From the NCBI RefSeq assembly GCF_900186535.1, contig NZ_FYDE01000003.1:310001-374000 (forward strand): DNA of 64,000 nucleotides, in the 5' to 3' direction. Each line of letters begins with the position of its first letter. Position 1 is the stretch's first letter. Below, one piece after another: positions 9,783 to 25,140 of the stretch. The position numbers and the translations under genes are program-made. The notes beneath the pieces are model-generated. The model made no database searches, was not told where the DNA came from, and saw only the letters and a program-made list of their open reading frames with translations. The stretch comes from Marasmitruncus massiliensis. GTDB taxonomy: Bacteria > Bacillota > Clostridia > Oscillospirales > Ruminococcaceae.

Positions 9783-11117
9783 CTATTTGGTTAGCGTACC
9801 GCTTGGTGTCTGCACCAGCAAAAAGATCTGTTCTTCTATACCGGTGTACGCATTGACATAAACAAGAATTTTCTGGTCCTTGTCTGATTGGGTTAAAAAT
9901 TCATAGGTGAGCACTTCGTTTTTTCCGCTGGTGGGGATCAATGCGATCTTTTGGGAAAGAATCTTCAGGTTGGGGTTCACAGATCTTGCGGCATCTTCCG
10001 CCGTGATAGACGGGGGATCAAAGGTGCGCTCCCGGTGATTGGTGATATAACCGCGCGCGTCAAAGAATACGATGCTGCCGTCGTCAAGCGCAACGCCTAC
10101 TTTGATCAGGTCGGTATAAAGGATGACATTGTCCTTGGCGGCGGCATAGTTGATGGTGCAGATGCCGTCGGCAATTTCATAATAGGTGGTGCGCATGTCG
10201 TAAATCCCCAGGTTTTCCAGATAGCGGTCTGCGAAGGAGAACATGGAGTCATGATTCAGCCGCTGTTCACCGACATCGCGGGAGTTGATCATATAGGTGA
10301 TCAGTCCGCCGGATTTTGTGGCGCCCACAGCTACATTGTTCCCGTTGAACGTATAGGACGGCATATTGGAGTTTTCGTCATCACTGCGAGTCAGTTCCCC
10401 GACCGACAGGCCGGCGGCTTTTGCGGCTGCGGCCTGCGCATCCTCGGGGGATACCGTCGGCAGACCCCGGGTAAGACGCGGCTTCTGGTTCAGCAGGTGA
10501 TCGGAAAACGGACCGTCATAGATCAGTGTGGGATATCCTGTCATGGACTGTTCGAGATCCTGAAAACCGTCAATCAGGCCGGGGCTCTGTTCCGCCACGC
10601 CAGTGCGCAGGGCGGAGACGCGGATATCATTGTTGATGATCTGCTGCTGCACATTGTCAATGTAGTCTTTCAGTTTAGACGCATATTGCTGCAGGGCTTC
10701 CGCATTTTTCGTCTCCTCGTCCGTGAGCACACCTCCGGCTGCGACCTTTTTGGAGAGGTTCATAGCGTAGTCGCCCACCTGCGAGAGGAACTTATAGGTG
10801 TTTTCCATATTAAGGTCACTTACGGGGAGGGTGGAAAGCGCCGACTTGGCTCCTCCGCTTTCTTTCCAGATGCGGGCGGAAAGCAGGGCGAGCTGGTTGG
10901 AAGTACCCACATACTGCCCCTTGTCCAGATCGACGGTCAGATTCGTCAGATAGCTTGAAAGCTCGCCGAGGGAGCGGGTATAGGAATTTTCGATCTGAAG
11001 CCGGTAGTCTTTGGCAATCGCGTTTTGCCGGATGGCATAACCCGCGCAAAGGAGGAGAGCGGCGGCGGAGTAACTGATCGTCCTGACCAAAGCGCGTTTG
11101 GAAATTTTTATATTCAT
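9783..11117 (-). CDS. ypeB: Spore germination protein YpeB
   Basis: 444 residues. YpeB is made in the forespore and keeps the cortex-lytic enzyme SleB stable; its PepSY domains are cleaved during germination. Here a membrane segment (about 13-30) is followed by a helical part with NSYTRSLGELSSYLTNL and IWKESGGAKSALSTLP, both typical of YpeB, and then PepSY-like repeats to the C-terminus. It is strong evidence that the organism forms spores. The usual partner sleB is not adjacent: the plus-strand nifS homologue lies on one side and the cyclophilin on the other. GGAGG in the minus-strand leader supports the start. Confidence 0.93.
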   Translation of the reverse strand: MNIKISKRALVRTISYSAAALLLCAGYAIRQNAIAKDYRLQIENSYTRSLGELSSYLTNLTVDLDKGQYVGTSNQLALLSARIWKESGGAKSALSTLPVSDLNMENTYKFLSQVGDYAMNLSKKVAAGGVLTDEETKNAEALQQYASKLKDYIDNVQQQIINNDIRVSALRTGVAEQSPGLIDGFQDLEQSMTGYPTLIYDGPFSDHLLNQKPRLTRGLPTVSPEDAQAAAAKAAGLSVGELTRSDDENSNMPSYTFNGNNVAVGATKSGGLITYMINSRDVGEQRLNHDSMFSFADRYLENLGIYDMRTTYYEIADGICTINYAAAKDNVILYTDLIKVGVALDDGSIVFFDARGYITNHRERTFDPPSITAEDAARSVNPNLKILSQKIALIPTSGKNEVLTYEFLTQSDKDQKILVYVNAYTGIEEQIFLLVQTPSGTLTK

Positions 11118-11280: not shown

Positions 11281-12423
11281 ATGGAGCAGCAAATCGCATA
11301 TCTGGACAATGCGGCCACAACCCGCGTCAGTGAGGAAGCGGCGCAGGCGGCAATGAGAATGATGCGGGAGTGCTTCGGAAATCCTTCTTCACTCCATGCG
11401 ATGGGGGTTGCCTCTGCGCGCGAGCTGAATGCGGCGCGGGAAGCGGTCGCTTCCCTGATGGGCTGTCAAAGCGAGTGTGTCTATTTCACATCGGGCGGGA
11501 GCGAATCCAATAACCTGGCTGTTTTTGGAGCGGCGAACGCAAAAGCCCGCAGGGGCCGGGAGATTGTCACGACTGCCGCGGAACATTCCTCCGTTGCCTG
11601 CGCGATGAAGCGGCTGGAAGAGACCGGCTGGACGGTAACGCGTATCAAACCGGACAGCTCCGGCAATATTGATCCGCGCGCTGTTGCGGATGCCGTTACC
11701 GATCAGACTGCGCTGGTCAGCATGATGATGGTGAACAACGAGACCGGCGCTGTTTTCCCTGCGGAGCAGGCGGCAAAATTAATCCGTGCCAAAAACCCGC
11801 AGACGCTGATCCACTGCGACGGCGTGCAGGCGTTTGGGAAGCTGCCGCTTCGGGTTTCGCGTATGGAGATTGACCTGATGAGCGTCAGCGGACACAAAAT
11901 CTGTGCGCCGAAAGGCTCAGGCGCGCTCTATATCAGGCGCGGTGTCCGGATTCTGCCGCTCATTTACGGCGGCGGACAGGAGCGCGGACTGCGTTCCGGA
12001 ACGGAAAACCTGCCCATGATCACGGCTTTGGGAACCGCGTGCGGCGCGCTGGAAGGGCAAGTACAGGAGTATTATCAACACGCGGCTGCGCTGAAAACGC
12101 GCCTTTTGGAAAAACTGTCGGAAATCGACGGTATATGCATCAATTCACCCGAAAACAGTTCACCTTATCTATGCAGCTTCTCGGTTCCCGGTTACCGCTC
12201 GGAAACGATGCTGCATTTCCTGGAAAGCCGAGGCGTTTACGTCTCCAGCGGTTCCGCCTGCTCAAAGGGGGCCGCAAGCCCTGTTTTAACCGCGATGGGC
12301 CTGCCTGTACCGGTGATTGACAGCGCGCTGCGCGTCAGTACCATCTATGATACCGCTGAGGCAGAGATTGACCGGCTCGTGGAAGCGCTGAAAGCCGGAA
12401 TCGCGGCGCTGGCACACAGGTAA
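11281..12423 (+). CDS. Cysteine desulfurase (NifS/IscS family), likely sulfur donor for ThiI
   Basis: 380 residues, PLP-dependent. The enzyme takes sulfur from cysteine as a persulfide. The PLP lysine is Lys206 in SVSGHKICAPKG, and the persulfide cysteine is Cys327 in SSGSACSKG. The early YLDNAATTRV is the family N-terminus. thiI starts 34 bases downstream; in Firmicutes a dedicated desulfurase (NifZ-type) paired with thiI feeds sulfur to tRNA 4-thiouridine and thiamine synthesis. That role fits here, but a general Fe-S function cannot be excluded. Confidence 0.93.
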   Translation: MEQQIAYLDNAATTRVSEEAAQAAMRMMRECFGNPSSLHAMGVASARELNAAREAVASLMGCQSECVYFTSGGSESNNLAVFGAANAKARRGREIVTTAAEHSSVACAMKRLEETGWTVTRIKPDSSGNIDPRAVADAVTDQTALVSMMMVNNETGAVFPAEQAAKLIRAKNPQTLIHCDGVQAFGKLPLRVSRMEIDLMSVSGHKICAPKGSGALYIRRGVRILPLIYGGGQERGLRSGTENLPMITALGTACGALEGQVQEYYQHAAALKTRLLEKLSEIDGICINSPENSSPYLCSFSVPGYRSETMLHFLESRGVYVSSGSACSKGAASPVLTAMGLPVPVIDSALRVSTIYDTAEAEIDRLVEALKAGIAALAHR

Positions 12424-12457
12424 AGATTCAACAACTTCAATAGAAATGGTGGAAAAC

Positions 12458-13627
12458 ATGAAAGAACTGATTTTGCTCAAAAGCGGCGAAATGGCGCTCA
12501 AGGGGCTGAACCGCTCCTACTTTGAGGATACCCTCATCCGAAACTGCCGCCGCCGTCTGGAAAGCCTCGGTAAATTCCACATTTATAAATCTCAGTCGAC
12601 CATTTATGTGGAACCTCAGAGTGAGGAAATTGACCTTGATGAAGCAGTGGACAGGCTGGGCCGTGTATTCGGGATTGCGGCCCTGACGCGCGCGGCGATT
12701 GTGGACAAGGATTTTAACGATATCAAAGCAAAAGCGCCCGGGTATCTGGCAGCATGGCTGGACACCGCCAACACCTTTAAGGTGGAGGCGAAGCGCTCCG
12801 ACAAGACGTTCCCGATGAAATCCCCGGAGCTCTGTCTGGAGCTGGGAGCTGTTTTGCTTGATGCATTCCCTCACCTGACCGTGAATGTGCATGAGCCGGA
12901 TGTGACTGTCTATGTGGAAATCCGCGAGAAGGCGGCTTACCTGCATGTGGACCAGATGCGGGGGGCCGGCGGTCTGCCGGTTGGAACTTCGGGAAGCGCG
13001 ACGCTGCTGATTTCCGGCGGGATTGACAGCCCCGTAGCGGGCTATATGATGGCAAAACGCGGCCTGCAGATCATGGCCGTGCATTTTGTGAGCCCTCCGT
13101 ATACCAGCGAGCATGCGCTGGAAAAGGTGAAAACCCTCTGCAAAAAGCTGACACCTTACTGCGGGCACATCCGGCTCGCGGTGGTGCCGTTTACGGAGAT
13201 ACAGGTCGCCATCCGGGATCAATGCCCGGAAGATGTGTTTACAGTCATCATGCGGCGCTGTATGATGAAACTCGCCGAGCGGGTGGCGGCCGATAACGAA
13301 TGCGGTGCGCTGATTACCGGAGAGAGCGTGGCGCAGGTGGCCAGCCAGACGATTTCCGCAATTGCCTGTACCGACGTAGCCTGCCGGATGCCGGTGCTGC
13401 GTCCGGTAATCGGGATGGATAAAGACGAAATCGTAAAGATAGCGTATAAGATTGATACGTTTGAGACCTCCATTTTGCCATATGAGGATTGCTGCACGGT
13501 CTTTACCCCGAGGCATCCGAAAACCAAGCCGAAGCTTGCATACGTGGAGGAGGCGGAATCCAAACTGGACAGCGAAGCCCTGATGCAGAGGGCATACGAG
13601 AAGATCGAATATTTCGTGATTGGCTGA
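12458..13627 (+). CDS. thiI: tRNA 4-thiouridine synthetase ThiI
   Basis: 389 residues. ThiI adenylates U8 of tRNA and inserts sulfur; it can also pass sulfur to thiazole synthesis. An N-terminal ferredoxin-like/THUMP region (about 1-165) precedes the PP-loop ATP site SGGIDSPVA (about 186-194). There is no C-terminal rhodanese domain, as in many Firmicutes, so sulfur must come directly from the desulfurase encoded just upstream. I prefer the ATG at 12458 (MKELILLKSGEMALKG) over the ATG at 12446, because the GGTGGA at 12448-12453 then acts as Shine-Dalgarno. Confidence 0.95.
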   Translation: MKELILLKSGEMALKGLNRSYFEDTLIRNCRRRLESLGKFHIYKSQSTIYVEPQSEEIDLDEAVDRLGRVFGIAALTRAAIVDKDFNDIKAKAPGYLAAWLDTANTFKVEAKRSDKTFPMKSPELCLELGAVLLDAFPHLTVNVHEPDVTVYVEIREKAAYLHVDQMRGAGGLPVGTSGSATLLISGGIDSPVAGYMMAKRGLQIMAVHFVSPPYTSEHALEKVKTLCKKLTPYCGHIRLAVVPFTEIQVAIRDQCPEDVFTVIMRRCMMKLAERVAADNECGALITGESVAQVASQTISAIACTDVACRMPVLRPVIGMDKDEIVKIAYKIDTFETSILPYEDCCTVFTPRHPKTKPKLAYVEEAESKLDSEALMQRAYEKIEYFVIG

Positions 13628-13654
13628 TCCGGGTGAGAAGAGGAGGTGCGACGG

Positions 13655-16600
13655 GTGGTTTCGGAAATCATTGGAGTCGGTGAAGCGCTCGCCACAGGCG
13701 GGGCGCTGGCCGAAAACGCACAGCTCGCAGCCAGGGAACTGGAAGCGTTTGGCATCACTGTAAAAGGGCAGACCGCGGTCGGCTCTGATGTCCGTCGGCT
13801 GAAATCCGCTATTGCGCAGGCGCTGGGCCGAAGCGACGTGGTAATTTTAATGGGTGGAATGGGCGCCGGTCCGGACGGAATTACCAAAAAAATAGTGTGC
13901 GAGGGGCTGGGACGCCGGCTTGTGCTGCATGAGGACAGCCTGCGGCGGATTCGGGAAGCATACCAGCGCGCTGGGCGGCAGATGCCCCAACAGGTGAAAC
14001 AGCTGGCGATGCTGCCGGAGAAATCCATTGTTTTTCCGGGGGTTCGGGGAATTACCCCCGGCTGTGCGCTCTCGGCGGGCAGCCAGTATATGATCCTTCT
14101 GCCCGAAAGGCCGGAAGAGTTTCTGCCGATGTTTCAAAGAAGCGTCATTCCTTATCTCGCGAAGTTTACGCAGGCCGCCGTTGCGTCACATACTGTCAAC
14201 GTAGTAGGTATGGGGGCGGAGGCGGTCAGGCAAAAGCTGGGAGAACTTCTGAAATCGGAAAATCCTGCGATTACCGTCGAGCCAAAGCCGGGCGAGTTGC
14301 AGGTTCGTGTGACGACCAGAGCGAATTCAAAGCAGGAAGCGGCCGCTTTGAGCGCACCGGTGGTTGACGGAATACAGAAGCAGCTGGGCGGGGCAATCTA
14401 CGGAATTGATGCGAAAAATCTGCAGAGCGTGGCTGTGGCGGCGCTGCTGGAACGCGGGCTTTCCGTTTCGGTAGCGGAGGCGTGCACGGGGGGCATGCTT
14501 TCGGAACTGCTCAATTCAGTTCCCGGCGCCGATAAAATTTTCCGGTATGCCGTATCGGCCGCATCCCCCCGGGTGAAGGAAGAATCGCTGCGGGTTCCGG
14601 CAAAAATGCTCAAAAAGTTCGGTTCGGTAAGCGCGCAGGTCGCGGCTGCGATGGCGGCCGGCGCGATGGCGCAGGGCAAATCCGAAATCGGCATTGCCAT
14701 AACGGGGAACGCCGGGGGGAAAGGCGAAGACGATAAACATACCGGGACCGTTTACATAGCGCTTTGTAATCAACAGGACGTCTGGGTAAGCAGGATAAGG
14801 CTTCCCAAGAGCACTGACCGGGCTTTGATTCGGCATACAGCCTGCATGGCCGCGATGAATCTGGCCCGTAAATACGCTGCGGCGCTGCCCGCACAGCTGG
14901 CGGGGTCAAATCCGTTAAAGGAAGCCGCCGCCGGGAAAATATCCAATATTTTAGAGGAAGATCTGAATCAAGGCTCAAATAAAGGCGGAAAACGCCCGTG
15001 GTATGCGGTTATTTTTCCGGTAAAGGGTGACGATATGAAATCAATCGTTCAAAAAACCATTCTGATTATAGCCGTGCTGGTATTTCTGGCGTCCGCGGGC
15101 TATTTGGTCTCTTTTTATGTACAGGCTGAAAGCAATAAGAAAATGACTGCGGGTCTTGCGGAAATGTATGGGGAAGCGCCGTCGGAAGAAGATCTGAAAA
15201 AGCTGGAGGAGTCCGGCGGATATCCATCCGATTATCAGAATAAATTTTTAAGTCTTTATGCCATCAACAGCGATGTCGCGGGCTGGCTCCAGATTGAAGA
15301 CACACAGGTCAACTATCCGGTTGTGCACTATACGGACAACGATTATTACCTGCGCCGGGATTTTTACCGAAATAATAACAAGCATGGTATCCCATGGCTG
15401 GAAGCGAATAACACGCTCAATCCTCAAAGCGACAACTACGTCGTATATGGGCATAATATGACCGACGGCCAGATGTTTGGCGAGTTGATGAAGTACAAGC
15501 CCAGCGGAGAAGGGCTTGAATATCTCAAAAACCATGCAATCATTTCGTTTGATGATGTTTACCGCGATAATGACTATAAGATTTTCTCGGTCTTTATCAC
15601 AAATGCCAAGGAAGCTTACGGCGAAATTTTCTATTACAACACGATGCTTAACCTGCAGGACGACGCAGATTTTAACGCGTTTGTGGATGGGGTAAAAGCG
15701 CGTTCCTATTACACTTCGGATGTGGATATCCAAAAAGGGGATCAATTCCTGACGCTTTCCACCTGCTCTTATGAGTTCGGAGCGATATCCGACGATGCGG
15801 ATGTGCGTACGGTGATTGTCGCGCGCAGGGTCCGTGATGGAGAAAAAGCGGATGCCAGCGGCATTACATATGCTTACAACCCGGACCCCCTGCTTCCGCC
15901 CGGATTTGTGGAGGGCCAGAAGCAGAAGGCAATCGCCGCCTCCAAGGCGGCTTCTGAAGCCGCCGCATCGCAGGCGGCGGCAAGCGGCAGCGCTGTTGCC
16001 GGGGCGTCCTCCAGCAAGAGTTCTTCCGTTGTTGTGTCCAGTTCAGCTGCAGGAAACCTGAGCGGGGTGGAGACTGAGGCGGCGCAGAAAGCCGCAAGGG
16101 CGCAGCAGGCGCAGAGTGACGCGGAAAAAGCGCTGAGAAACGCCAAGAGCAGTTACAATAACGCAAGGGATGCGGGCACACAGTCGAGGGCGCAGACGTA
16201 TGCCAACGAAGCGAAGGGATATGCTGATACCGCAAGGGAGGCATATTATAAAGCCTCGGATCTGGTGGACGAATTACAGGAAGTCTATGAGGAATATCCA
16301 TCGCAGACAACGGAGAAGGCTTATCACACTGCTTTGGACGCAATGAATGCGGCCGAGGCGGCATGGGAAGACGCGAAGTCATATGCCGCTGATGCACAGT
16401 CGGCCGCTGATGATCTGAAGCCGGTTTCTTCGAGCAGTGCGCCATCTTCAAGCAATAAACCTTCTTCAAACAGTGTGCCTTCTTCAAACAGTGAACCATC
16501 TTCAAATAGCGAGCCATCTTCAAACAGCGAGCCATCTTCAAACAGCGAACCGTCTTCAAACAGCGAACCGTCTTCAAACAGTGAGCCATCTTCAAATAGC

Positions 16601-17551
16601 GAGTCGAACCCTCCAAGCAGTTCAAATGAAGAAATCACTAACGACGATTTAAATAATAACGCTGGTGGGGAAGGTGCCGGAGAATCTTCAGACGGCGATG
16701 CAGATGATGCAGGCGGAGCCACTCAAATGAGTGCGGTTTTGAGAAGCGGGTCAGCAACCGAAGTGCTTGCCGCGTCGGTCAGCGGGAATGAGAAGCTCAC
16801 GATTATTGCCGGAGGGAAAAAACTGACGGGAAAAGCCTCTTCCCTGGTAGCCAAAGTTGTCATGAACGAAATGGGAACAGGATTTGAAAAAGAGGCAATC
16901 AAGGCGCAGGCGGTTGCTGCCTACACCTTTATCAAGCAACAGAACAAATCCGGCGTTACCCCCTATTTCGGGATCAAAACGCCCACCGCCGATCTGCAGA
17001 AAACGGTGAATTCGGTGATCGGCAAGGCGGTTTATTATCAAAGCAACCTCGCGTTTACCCCGTTTTATGCGACCAGTGCGGGGGTGACCATTTCCAGTAA
17101 GGATGTATGGGGCGGAAGTTATCCATATCTGGTGTCGGTAGACAGCGAAATTGATGAACAGGCGAAAAATTACAAGCAGAGCGTTTCGTTTGATGCCGAT
17201 ACTGTTGCCGAAAAAGTAGAGGATAAACTGGATATTGACCTGTATGATTACAGCGATGACCCAGCCGATTGGTTCAGCATTAAGAGCCATACAGAAGGCG
17301 GGCGCTATGTTAAGACCGTCCGGGTGGGTGATAAGACCACAACGGGCCGCATCCTGCGTGAACAGGTTTTCGGTTTGCGTTCGGCCGCTTTTGACATTAA
17401 TTACAGGAATGGAAAGTTTACCTTTACCACTTATGGATACGGGCATGGTGTCGGCATGAGCCAAACGGGCGCAAACCTGTATGCTTCGCTGGAGGATTGG
17501 AATTACGTGGATATCCTGACCCACTATTATCCGGGCTGCAAGGTAAAATAG
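13655..17551 (+). CDS. Fusion protein: CinA-like domains, membrane anchor, class B sortase, coiled coil, Ser-rich repeat, SpoIID/LytB domain
   Basis: One uninterrupted frame of 1298 residues. Residues 1-170 resemble the CinA N-terminal domain, but GGLGPTxDD appears as GGMGAGPDG (67-75). Residues about 262-425 resemble the CinA C-terminal amidase, but AESCTGG reads AEACTGG, with Ala276 replacing the Ser. A membrane segment (about 468-489) follows an in-frame Met461. The sortase region (about 500-730) has His600, Cys704 in TLSTC and Arg718, so it looks active. Then come an Ala-rich coiled coil (about 805-925), eight six-residue repeats (936-983), and a SpoIID/LytB domain (about 1050-1298) with Glu1072 in VVMNEMG and GHGVGMSQTGA. 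AGGAGG at 13641-13646 supports the GTG start at 13655. Such a combination is unfamiliar to me. Confidence 0.85.
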   Translation: MVSEIIGVGEALATGGALAENAQLAARELEAFGITVKGQTAVGSDVRRLKSAIAQALGRSDVVILMGGMGAGPDGITKKIVCEGLGRRLVLHEDSLRRIREAYQRAGRQMPQQVKQLAMLPEKSIVFPGVRGITPGCALSAGSQYMILLPERPEEFLPMFQRSVIPYLAKFTQAAVASHTVNVVGMGAEAVRQKLGELLKSENPAITVEPKPGELQVRVTTRANSKQEAAALSAPVVDGIQKQLGGAIYGIDAKNLQSVAVAALLERGLSVSVAEACTGGMLSELLNSVPGADKIFRYAVSAASPRVKEESLRVPAKMLKKFGSVSAQVAAAMAAGAMAQGKSEIGIAITGNAGGKGEDDKHTGTVYIALCNQQDVWVSRIRLPKSTDRALIRHTACMAAMNLARKYAAALPAQLAGSNPLKEAAAGKISNILEEDLNQGSNKGGKRPWYAVIFPVKGDDMKSIVQKTILIIAVLVFLASAGYLVSFYVQAESNKKMTAGLAEMYGEAPSEEDLKKLEESGGYPSDYQNKFLSLYAINSDVAGWLQIEDTQVNYPVVHYTDNDYYLRRDFYRNNNKHGIPWLEANNTLNPQSDNYVVYGHNMTDGQMFGELMKYKPSGEGLEYLKNHAIISFDDVYRDNDYKIFSVFITNAKEAYGEIFYYNTMLNLQDDADFNAFVDGVKARSYYTSDVDIQKGDQFLTLSTCSYEFGAISDDADVRTVIVARRVRDGEKADASGITYAYNPDPLLPPGFVEGQKQKAIAASKAASEAAASQAAASGSAVAGASSSKSSSVVVSSSAAGNLSGVETEAAQKAARAQQAQSDAEKALRNAKSSYNNARDAGTQSRAQTYANEAKGYADTAREAYYKASDLVDELQEVYEEYPSQTTEKAYHTALDAMNAAEAAWEDAKSYAADAQSAADDLKPVSSSSAPSSSNKPSSNSVPSSNSEPSSNSEPSSNSEPSSNSEPSSNSEPSSNSEPSSNSESNPPSSSNEEITNDDLNNNAGGEGAGESSDGDADDAGGATQMSAVLRSGSATEVLAASVSGNEKLTIIAGGKKLTGKASSLVAKVVMNEMGTGFEKEAIKAQAVAAYTFIKQQNKSGVTPYFGIKTPTADLQKTVNSVIGKAVYYQSNLAFTPFYATSAGVTISSKDVWGGSYPYLVSVDSEIDEQAKNYKQSVSFDADTVAEKVEDKLDIDLYDYSDDPADWFSIKSHTEGGRYVKTVRVGDKTTTGRILREQVFGLRSAAFDINYRNGKFTFTTYGYGHGVGMSQTGANLYASLEDWNYVDILTHYYPGCKVK
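16460..16603 (+). repeat. Eight tandem 18-bp coding repeats (Pro-Ser-Ser-Asn-Ser-Glu)
   Basis: Eight consecutive 18-bp units encode PSSNSE (the first unit ends in Val). Third-position changes between units show some age. It forms the spacer between the coiled coil and the SpoIID domain and may vary in copy number between strains. Confidence 0.93.
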
Positions 17552-17763: not shown

Positions 17764-18801
17764 ATGAAAGCAATTTTACGCGGGCTTTATTTCTTTTTTT
17801 CAGGCATCAAAACAACCTGCAGCGAACTTTGCGAGTGGTATACGACAAACAGGAGTATTCCGCGATTTATGCGTAACAAGGCCTCTCTGGCGGTCATTGT
17901 GGTAGCCATTATTGCCGGAGGCTGGGGACTGGTTGCCGCGGTAACAAGCGGGAGCGGCATCGAACGTCACTCGCTCTCCGACTCTTCCGCGAAAGAGAGT
18001 TCCTCAGAGGCGCAGGAACCGGACAAAGATCAGCAGGAGCCATCCTCATCCGAAGAGGCGCCGTCTGAACAGCCGGCTATCGATGCAATTGCCGGGGCAA
18101 CCCGTTTTGAACCGGTAACTGCCGAACAGATGTATAAAGTGCTGGATGACCGTGCGAAAAAATACAAAGAAAATAACAAGTCCGATGTTTTCACACCGCC
18201 GCCTGCGGGCGATATTGCCGCCTGGAAAAAGATCAACAGCGATGTGGTCGGCTGGATTACAGTTTCCAACACAAATATCAATTATCCGGTGGTAATTGGT
18301 GCGAATACGGCCTATTATACCAGCCGGGGCTATTATAAGGAAGCCAGCAGAAACGGCGTGATCTGGTTGGACTCCGATACAAAATTCGGGACTAACGGAG
18401 CGATCACCTCTCAAAATGCTGTCATCTATGGACATAACTGGACGAATTGCTGGCGGCCTGTGCGTATCGGCAATCCGAACGATGTGATGCTTGCGCAGCT
18501 GGCTGCTTATGACAATGCCGAATTTGCAGCGGCGAATCCCTATATCCGGTTGGCGACCTCCGACGGGGACCATCTGTATGAGATTTTCACAGTGTTTTAT
18601 ACCGACCTGAGCTTTGGCTATAACTATGCGGATGGAAGCCGGGTACCCGGCATCATCTCCAAAGCGAAGGGCCTGAGCATTCACAAGTTTAATGTCCCGG
18701 TTTCCAGTACGGATAAGATTATCACCTTGTCTACCTGTACCCGTATTCTCGGACCGGGAGACAATCAGCGGTTTGTCGTAATGGCAAAGAAGATTTCTTA
18801 G
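17764..18801 (+). CDS. Class B sortase
   Basis: 345 residues. Sortases are membrane-held cysteine transpeptidases that attach proteins to the wall or pilus. A membrane segment (about 41-60) is followed by a Ser/Glu-rich stretch (about 65-105) and the catalytic beta-barrel. His224 in YGHN, Cys325 in TLSTC and Arg336 form the expected triad, so it should be active. It lies 212 bases after the fusion gene that carries another class B sortase, with its own promoter and terminator. No protein in the window ends with a recognisable sorting signal, so its substrate is unknown. Confidence 0.92.
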   Translation: MKAILRGLYFFFSGIKTTCSELCEWYTTNRSIPRFMRNKASLAVIVVAIIAGGWGLVAAVTSGSGIERHSLSDSSAKESSSEAQEPDKDQQEPSSSEEAPSEQPAIDAIAGATRFEPVTAEQMYKVLDDRAKKYKENNKSDVFTPPPAGDIAAWKKINSDVVGWITVSNTNINYPVVIGANTAYYTSRGYYKEASRNGVIWLDSDTKFGTNGAITSQNAVIYGHNWTNCWRPVRIGNPNDVMLAQLAAYDNAEFAAANPYIRLATSDGDHLYEIFTVFYTDLSFGYNYADGSRVPGIISKAKGLSIHKFNVPVSSTDKIITLSTCTRILGPGDNQRFVVMAKKIS

Positions 18802-23472: not shown

Positions 23473-25140
23473 TTAGAACAGGCCGGAGATATGACCGTCG
23501 CCGTCCACATCAATGTGATAAGCGGCGGGGTCTTTCGGCAGGCCCGGCATGGTCATAATATCACCGGTCAGCGCGACAATGAACCCTGCGCCGGCAGACA
23601 GGCGGATGTCTTTTACATGAATGGTAAAACCTGTGGGGCGTCCCAACTTTGTGGGATCGTCGGACAGGGAATATTGTGTCTTTGCCATACAGACAGGCAG
23701 GCCGGCTTTGCCGAGCCTTTCAATTTCCTGTATCATCTTTTCGGCGGAAACGGTATAACTGACATCCGCCGCGCCGTAAATTTCTTTGGCGATGCGGGAG
23801 ATTTTCTCCCTGACCGGCAGTTCCGTGTCATAGAGCGGGCGAAAATCGGAAGTGTCCTCGCATGCCTCTACAACAGCTTTCGCCAGTTCGATTCCGCCGT
23901 CTCCGCCTTTTGCAAAGACTTCCGATAGGGCAAACCGGCAGCCGGTGCGTGCGCAGAACCGGGAAAGCGTCTCAATTTCCTCGTCGCTGTCGCCGCCGAA
24001 CCGGTTGATGGCAACGACTACCGGAACACCGTATTTTTGCATGTTTTCCACATGCGCCTCCAAGTTGACCAGCCCTCTTTTCAGGGCTTCCACATTCGGA
24101 ATGCCCGTTTCGGCCTTGGGGACGCCGCCGTTATATTTCAGCGCGCGCATGGTGGCGACCAGCACAATGGCGGAAGGCGCAATTCCCGCGATGCGGCATT
24201 TGATGTCCAGGAACTTTTCGGCGCCGAGATCGGAGCCGAAGCCCGCCTCCGTAATCGTGTAATCGGCCAGCTTGAGCGCCAGCTTGGTGGCGCGGATGGA
24301 GTTGCAGCCATGCGCGATATTGGCAAACGGCCCGCCATGCATCAGAGCGGGCGTATTTTCCAGCGTCTGCACCAGATTAGGCTTGATTGCGTCTTTTAAA
24401 AGAGCTGCCATTGCGCCCTGCGCCTGCAGGTCACGCGCGTAGACAGGGGTATTACTAAAAGTATAAGCAACCAGAATATCTCCCAAACGTTTTTTCAGGT
24501 CATCCAGATCAGCCGCGAGGCAGAGAATTGCCATCACTTCAGAGGCGACGGTGATCATAAAATGGTCTTCCCGCGGCATACCGTTGATTTTTCCGCCAAG
24601 CCCGACGATGACGTTGCGCATCGCGCGGTCGTTCATATCCAGACAGCGGGTGAACAAAATACGGCGCGGGTCGATTCCCAATAGGTTGCCCTGCTGGAGA
24701 TGGTTATCCAAAATGGCGCAGAGGAGATTGTTTGCCGAGGTAATCGCGTGCATATCACCGGTAAAATGCAGGTTGATATCCTCCATTGGCACCACCTGCG
24801 CATATCCGCCGCCAGCCGCGCCGCCCTTGATGCCGAATACGGGGCCGAGGGACGGTTCGCGCAGCGCGATCACAGCGCGCTTCCCAATTTTCGCCATCGC
24901 TTCGCCGAGCCCTACCGTTGTGGTGGTTTTTCCCTCGCCGGCCGGCGTGGGGTTGATGGCGGTAACGAGAACCAGTTTCCCGTCAGGGCGGCTGTTCAGC
25001 CGCGAATAGACTGCCTCCGAGAGCTTCGCCTTATATCTGCCGTATGGCTCCAGTTCCTCGGGCAAAATCCCCAGACGGTCCGCAATCTCGCCGATTGGGA
25101 GCATCTGCGCGGACTGTGCAATTTCGATATCACTTAGCAT
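23473..25140 (-). CDS. fhs: Formate-tetrahydrofolate ligase
   Basis: 555 residues, the family's usual length. The enzyme uses ATP to make 10-formyl-THF from formate, feeding purine synthesis and, in acetogens, the methyl branch of the Wood-Ljungdahl pathway. The nucleotide site is [10 protein letters not shown] at 65-74. The segment [21 protein letters not shown]-like glycine loop near 95-115 and the C-terminal [11 protein letters not shown] are family marks. It lies 17 bases after rodA. I see no THF riboswitch, and too little room for one. Acetogenesis cannot be claimed from this gene alone. Confidence 0.97.

Follow-up and report, generated by a model that had tools for sequence, protein, structure and literature searches.

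The 64,000-nucleotide stretch of the Marasmitruncus massiliensis genome analysed here (hereafter the window; contig NZ_FYDE01000003.1, positions 310,001 to 374,000) carries on its forward strand one open frame in which a CinA-type region, a class B sortase and a SpoIID/LytB domain follow one another. How did three such parts come to share a single frame, and what could a CinA module do in a protein with two wall-active domains? As argued below, the gene probably came about as a row of neighbouring genes was joined step by step, and its CinA half, which we strongly infer to be dead as an enzyme at both active sites, probably now acts as the scaffold of a sortase/wall-lytic protein.

The fusion gene (13646..17551, + strand, as are all its parts below) is stop-free over 1301 codons when counted from GTG 13646, the numbering used here for residues such as His603, Cys707, Arg721 and Glu1075; an alternative GTG at 13655 gives 1298 residues and, in our own reading, seems the better placed of the two behind the GAGGAGG at 13640–13646. 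Five Pfam domains each score above their curated cut-off, namely MoCF_biosynth (residues 7–172), CinA_KH (181–253), CinA/PncC (258–410), Sortase (548–729) and SpoIID (1067–1101), as do the NCBIfam models TIGR03064 (class B sortase), TIGR02669 (SpoIID_LytB) and TIGR00199 (PncC_domain). The CinA region thus comprises a COG1058/MoCF pyrophosphatase-like domain (13664..14161), a KH domain (14186..14404) and a PncC-like domain (14417..14875). Behind it lie an FPVKGD juxtamembrane motif (15014..15031), a single hydrophobic and, by hydropathy, predicted transmembrane segment (15059..15115) whose positive residues on the CinA side would leave the N-terminus inside, the class B sortase domain (15287..15832), a spacer that the structure model predicts as long helices (15902..16414), a Ser-rich, disordered repeat spacer with predicted local distance difference test (pLDDT) values under 50 (16442..16777), and the SpoIID/LytB domain (16853..17545), the last assigned by NCBIfam, alignment and Foldseek. 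Within the Ser-rich part, PSSNSE units are encoded by a near-perfect short repeat (16434–16620), and their copy number may differ among strains. The initial annotation, made from the DNA alone, had described a stop-free frame for 1298 residues with a CinA-type region, a membrane helix, a class B sortase and a SpoIID/LytB domain; the frame holds, from 13646 or 13655 to 17551, as does, by Pfam, NCBIfam and hydropathy, the domain set, and the coiled coil and Ser-rich repeat noted there are present in sequence and model as a long helical stretch and the repeat just given.

The fusion is widespread among gut clostridia. All ten other genus genomes searched have CinA and sortase in one open frame, and eight of the ten have SpoIID in it as well; in the remaining two (G201 and G204; here G numbers denote genomes, L numbers the DNA stretches read and f numbers families within the order) SpoIID belongs to a second gene, located on a different contig. 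In that second gene (L184:222-3269 in G201, L185:5658-8738 in G204) a CinA-like half is joined straight to SpoIID, and no sortase domain was detected between them. Independent assemblies, among them the complete chromosome of Anaerotruncus colihominis DSM 17241 (CP102255.1), show corresponding continuous frames. A family search with the joint region matched 133 of 197 genomes, mostly in the sortase alone; the CinA-sortase fusion is present in at least 47 of the 197, the window's own included, which fall into at least 33 genus codes, 32 besides the window's. For closer inspection, 60 stretches selected from the family and genus matches, together with L001, L002, L003, L005 and the window, yielded 57 frames that combine COG1058 and sortase, and since L002 duplicates L066 these amount to 56 proteins from 53 genomes. 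Across the order (295 genomes), CinA-sortase fusions are also found in families f4, f9, f15 and f24, and a PncC-sortase fusion in f23; a search of 391 genomes sampled from the class, some of them members of the order itself, gave no fusion beyond the order at E ≤ 1e-55, a threshold that together with the first-look filter can miss divergent ones.

Given this distribution, the reading of the frame as an assembly error or a missed stop or frameshift can practically be discounted. The CinA-sortase frame recurs in all ten other genus genomes searched and in the 32 other genus codes, dN/dS (the ratio of nonsynonymous to synonymous substitution) across the joint is low in close pairs (0.115 and 0.105), and nothing was found in favour of an artefact, which we reject since independent assemblies share the frame. 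The initial annotation had held that relatives with separate cinA and sortase genes would speak for a missed stop; such relatives do exist (L146, L150, L105, L160 and L081), but there is no missed stop here, and they show the parts before joining or, in some cases, possibly after splitting. A search of other genomes, proposed there as a check, thus finds the fusion common to many members of the family and order, which supports a single polypeptide with a CinA-type half, a transmembrane segment and two wall-active domains, the first predicted to lie in the cytosol and the latter two outside.

In alignment with TtCinA (4ct8), the metal-binding acids E12, D45 and D76 of the pyrophosphatase-like domain are replaced in the window by A, S and G, and ribose-binding E156 of that domain is kept; the KH domain has A at Tt E187. 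In the PncC-like domain, catalytic S269 and phosphate-binding Y296 have both become A, and K301, T340 and R377 are kept. Full-length CinA models match below their cut-offs (PRK00549, 311.9 vs 379 bits; TIGR00200, 230 vs 243.15 bits), the CinA equivalog thus falling short where the PncC_domain subfamily model does not, and this fits a degenerate CinA. Single Ala replacement of E21, D54 or D85 is reported to abolish the pyrophosphatase activity of At COG1058 (PMC3680494), residues that we equate with Tt E12, D45 and D76, and S31A and Y58A are reported to abolish the nicotinamide mononucleotide deamidase activity of At PncC (PMC5384747). Since the residues whose replacement by Ala kills each activity are gone, both enzyme activities of the window's CinA half have in all likelihood been lost. 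The genome (3.76 Mb, five contigs) also holds a separate, intact CinA, 33% identical to the fused one, besides another SpoIID-type match and further sortases. As such, the idea in the initial annotation that a CinA enzyme feeds a cytosolic nucleotide signal to the wall finds no support.

The losses are not confined to the window. Over 56 columns that are near-invariant in 66 intact CinAs, median retention in 31 decayed copies is 0.55; E12 (0.06), D45 (0.13), Y296 and R377 (0.23 each) stand near the bottom, together with S286 and A343 (0.13 each), D76 (0.39), S269 (0.45) and K301 (0.61) nearer the middle, and several Gly, Pro and Ala positions and E156 (0.87) near the top. As a copy counts as decayed once any of seven catalytic residues (E12, D45, D76, S269, Y296, K301 and R377) is missing, retention in those columns is biased downwards.

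When these seven residues were scored in the 56 fused proteins, all were present in 11, from 11 genomes, in which a search with the stand-alone CinA of the window genome (E ≤ 1e-12) found no other CinA; a second copy may have been missed, since some of these genomes are incomplete (G023, 78%; G187, 83%; G186 and G001, 84%). None of the 11 intact proteins has SpoIID in the same frame. The other 45 fused proteins come from 42 genomes, of which 36 have a full-length separate CinA, three have a PncC part only (G022, G061 and G154, the match in G154 crossing two stop codons) and three have none. Counted by protein, the association between intact residues and second copy has a Fisher p of 2.4e-9, a value inflated by shared ancestry among the proteins. 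The second copies themselves appear sound: all 21 that were read (L011, L126-L145) keep ten of ten residues, and none of the 49 separate CinA rows, L061 included, has lost any of the seven that were scored. Six further fused copies from other families (L147, L148, L155, L157, L159 and L161) likewise keep ten of ten; in each of their genomes a single match passes E ≤ 1e-90, up to three candidates having been scored in any one genome.

Loss of catalysis has not meant loss of constraint. By the Nei-Gojobori method, applied to eight pairs, dN/dS of the CinA part is 0.112 and 0.064 in the close decayed pairs L003/L048 and L124/L125, with 0.017 and 0.069 for the sortase and 0.071 and 0.043 for SpoIID. 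In these two genome pairs the separate CinA has 0.051 and 0.038 over its domains only (the values used here; inclusion of the stretches upstream of the domains gave 0.139 and 0.043). The CinA part of fused intact pairs gives 0.106, 0.080 and 0.079, and the window/L001 pair 0.132 with saturated dS. Constraint on the dead module is thus relaxed about twofold in close pairs, yet there is real purifying selection. Furthermore, the module is predicted to retain its fold. An AlphaFold2 model of residues 1–760 has a mean pLDDT of 88.4 and a predicted template modelling score of 0.54, which leaves the relative placement of the domains unsure; it shows the COG1058-KH-PncC order and predicted fold of CinA, and Foldseek matches it to TtCinA (7.5e-35) and sortase B (1.3e-19). 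The model of residues 752–1301 (mean pLDDT 75.6) consists of helices, the disordered Ser-rich stretch and a SpoIID fold, the SpoIID part matching 5i1t at 1.1e-17. The structure prediction suggested in the initial annotation thus recovers the CinA, sortase B and SpoIID folds.

The relatives also preserve arrangements from which the fusion could have been built. In G361 (L146), cinA, srtB and spoIID are three adjacent separate genes, with a Shine-Dalgarno (SD)-like stretch before srtB and another before spoIID. Since FPWKGD sits near the N-terminus of this unfused sortase, the FPVKGD before the transmembrane segment in the window marks the joint; [KR]GD occurs ahead of this segment in 29 of 55 fused genes, as KGD in 24. 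Elsewhere cinA adjoins an unfused sortase (L105, L150 and L160) or a sortase-SpoIID fusion (L081), or a CinA-sortase fusion is followed by SpoIID as the next gene (L084, L086, L090, L094, L102, L112, L113 and L180), and in the window and others the three-part gene is fully fused. Directly upstream of the window gene lies thiI (12446..13627, +; Pfam); of 60 related loci, 56 have thiI at this position as well, in the same orientation. At least 17 of 44 stand-alone CinA loci have thiI upstream (16 of 43 distinct places, L060 and L123 being one place, and some stretches being short), as against none of the 22 second-copy loci (L011, L088, L126-L145). In a CinA tree of 97 rows, built by a quick method and made approximate by the long branches of the decayed rows, a starred branch of 97 splits 42 stand-alone rows from the sortase-linked ones; seven rows of separate CinA fall on the linked side, five of them with a sortase neighbour (L081, L105, L146, L150 and L160) and two (L153 and L169) with no sortase in the flank read. 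The simplest reading of these sequences is that the fused gene represents the ancestral thiI-linked cinA and that the separate copy came later, by transfer or duplication.

As for the wall-active halves, the window's sortase exceeds the cut-off of TIGR03064 and has the His-Cys-Arg triad (His603, 15452; Cys707, 15764; Arg721, 15806). With the window counted, 50 of 57 rows have this triad, and one further row is truncated by its contig. In a mirror image of the window, L110:7118-9814 (G186) has intact CinA residues and has lost the sortase His and Cys (to N and D); its sister L104 keeps the triad. Not one of 32 rows has lost the SpoIID Glu or His. Glu1075 (16868) of the window, whose SpoIID part combines a TIGR02669 match above cut-off with the predicted fold, falls in the alignment on the Glu that is conserved and catalytic in SpoIID, replacement of which (E101A) is reported to inactivate the C. 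difficile protein (PMC6221140). Transfer to peptidoglycan by the sortase and cleavage by SpoIID are predicted activities. The sporulation equivalog TIGR02870 scores 149.8 vs a cut-off of 234.75 bits, and the other SpoIID-type gene of the genome seems the better candidate for the sporulation protein.

The explanation that we favour, stepwise fusion with a dead CinA turned scaffold, has its computed basis in the frame, the domains, the gene rows, the loss of catalytic residues, the second copy and selection. A row cinA-srtB-spoIID behind thiI would have been joined step by step, CinA probably being fused while still the sole CinA of the cell; where a lineage has a second cinA, the catalytic residues of the fused copy would have been lost and its fold kept under purifying selection. 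With a single N-in transmembrane segment, the sortase would lie outside and join proteins to the peptidoglycan. Spaced from the membrane by the helical and Ser-rich spacers, the SpoIID/LytB domain would cut denuded glycan strands at the same spot, such that surface proteins would most likely be anchored where the protein's own lytic domain opens the wall. Since CinA proteins are dimers, as reported for TtCinA (PMC4246079), the pseudo-CinA would most likely be a cytosolic, probably dimeric holder that keeps the wall-active part paired and in place. The topology, the two activities, the order of events and the scaffold role are what we infer.

Several observations weigh against this reading. PncC and KH are undetected in several relatives, where the module is thus partly dispensable, and the CinA part of two more distant decayed pairs has dN/dS of 0.167 and 0.227. 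No second copy was found in three genomes with decayed fusions (G033, whose fusion keeps the four scored PncC residues, G032, 91% complete, and G026, 87%). The link between intact residues and a missing second copy is hardly phylogenetically independent: on the starred branches of the sortase tree there are two independent pairs, of which on average 1.8 agree, none disagree and 0.2 are undecided, and on all branches seven, for which the direction of agreement is not reported. Triad residues are lost in six fused sortases, one of them (L110) with intact CinA. Finally, a sorting-signal substrate was not found with TIGR03063 above cut-off in the window genome (one match below, E 0.86), and scanning the window itself brought up a single weak match, probably a chance one since its frame lies opposite a 555-residue open reading frame (23473-25140).

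Some of these points would suit a CinA half that is a slowly decaying N-terminal passenger, kept since the start signals of the gene precede it. The catalytic losses, the undetected PncC and KH domains and the raised dN/dS of the more distant pairs are what such a relic should show, and a possible end state exists behind thiI in G091, where about 220 unrecognised residues precede the transmembrane segment of a sortase-SpoIID protein (L093; L186:9066-11690). However, the two closest decayed pairs, at 0.064–0.112, are about twofold above separate CinA (0.038–0.051) and within the range of the three fused intact pairs (0.079–0.106), and the fold is predicted with high confidence; we thus consider a mere relic unlikely. 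Persistence of fold and selection would also fit a transmembrane sensor in which the non-catalytic pseudo-CinA binds a pyridine or adenine nucleotide and its bound state alters the sortase or SpoIID outside. Some ligand contacts indeed stay (E156 in 0.87 of the 31 decayed copies, with K301, T340 and R377 kept besides in the window), but others are among those most often lost (Y296, R377, S286 and A343), several relatives lack a detectable PncC domain, and a single transmembrane helix would offer no obvious signal route, which makes a sensor rather improbable.

The device proposed in the initial annotation, read as an active CinA enzyme in the cytosol linked to anchoring or cleavage of the wall outside, has in its favour the 11 relatives that keep all seven scored residues and the six from other families that keep all ten; for the window, with residues of both active sites lost and another intact CinA in the genome, we give it hardly any credence. 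Production of a CinA-like protein and, from an internal start before the transmembrane segment, a separate sortase-SpoIID protein is also very unlikely. At 15035 the window does offer an ATG whose SD-like duplex is moderate (-7.3 kcal/mol), but of 55 fused genes no more than 18 carry an ATG there, their mean best SD duplex is -3.25 vs -3.06 at 963 control ATGs, and a duplex of -7 or lower occurs in three of the 18 vs 10.4% of controls. An internal start for a separate sortase was hence rejected as not conserved among the 55 fused genes.

Around the fusion, the gene upstream of thiI (11281..12423, +), whose product we take by eye to be cysteine-desulfurase-like, has a homologue in 50 of the 60 related loci, and the gene at 9783-11117 (-), presumably for a protein resembling the spore germination protein YpeB, has one upstream in 22 of 60 linked loci. 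Downstream lies a second, separate sortase gene (17764..18801, +; Pfam above cut-off, class B model below), with a similar gene in 20 of 60 loci. In family f4 (L122, L155, L157 and L159) the CinA-sortase fusion is likewise followed by a second sortase. The fused sortase domain of f4 clusters with other sortases in the tree; a single clade including f4, with nested other sortases omitted, is not rejected by the approximately unbiased test (p 0.13), and an earlier rejection of the single clade (p 1e-6) was set aside because other sortases nested among the linked ones had been included. An independent second fusion in f4 is possible. CinA and sortase matches also share a frame of 876 residues in G303:C4 57990-60494 and L196, a further likely fusion in family f24. 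The PncC domain alone is linked to sortase in G226 (fused; L158/L182) and in G015 (sortase as separate neighbour; L188), both behind thiI.

Within the open-licence PubMed Central (PMC) literature searched, as far as its text was available, we found no description of a CinA-sortase-SpoIID, CinA-sortase or sortase-SpoIID fusion; the parts are known, and their combination, the gene-row origin and the fate of CinA appear undescribed there. The family documents with rare completeness how a multidomain protein came into being, with the gene row, partial fusions on either side and the full fusion all surviving in relatives. It also amounts, in the sampled set, to a natural experiment on pseudoenzymes: genomes with an intact CinA half yielded no second copy, and those with a broken half did yield one, with three exceptions in 42 genomes. 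By tying a class B sortase to a SpoIID-type wall-lytic domain, and both to a module predicted to be cytosolic, the protein suggests a pairing for joint anchoring and local opening of the wall. Tentatively, one may even see a housekeeping NAD-recycling enzyme captured by a wall-anchoring protein, the sole CinA being permanently tied to an extracellular sortase in some clostridia and elsewhere, relieved of its metabolic task by a second cinA, having become a dedicated pseudoenzyme with control over the sortase and the wall-lytic domain from within the cytosol.

Class B sortases are typically short, single-domain, N-anchored proteins, whereas the window protein has more than 450 residues before its transmembrane segment and about 550 after the sortase. 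With the class B sortases of B. anthracis (2oqw) and C. difficile (SrtB, PMC5118464), as far as these are described in the sources available, it has in common TIGR03064, the His/Cys/Arg triad and a Foldseek match at 1.3e-19. With SpoIID of C. difficile and B. anthracis (5i1t, 4rwr; PMC6221140) it shares, by the accessible account, the SpoIID/LytB fold and the Glu (catalytic E101 in C. difficile), yet unlike them its SpoIID is fused to a sortase, and another SpoIID-type match lies elsewhere in the genome. TtCinA (4ct8), finally, has the same three-domain COG1058-KH-PncC order and the fold predicted for the window protein. As reported (PMC4246079), however, it is a soluble bifunctional enzyme, whereas the window protein has lost residues at both active sites and continues into a transmembrane segment, a sortase and SpoIID.

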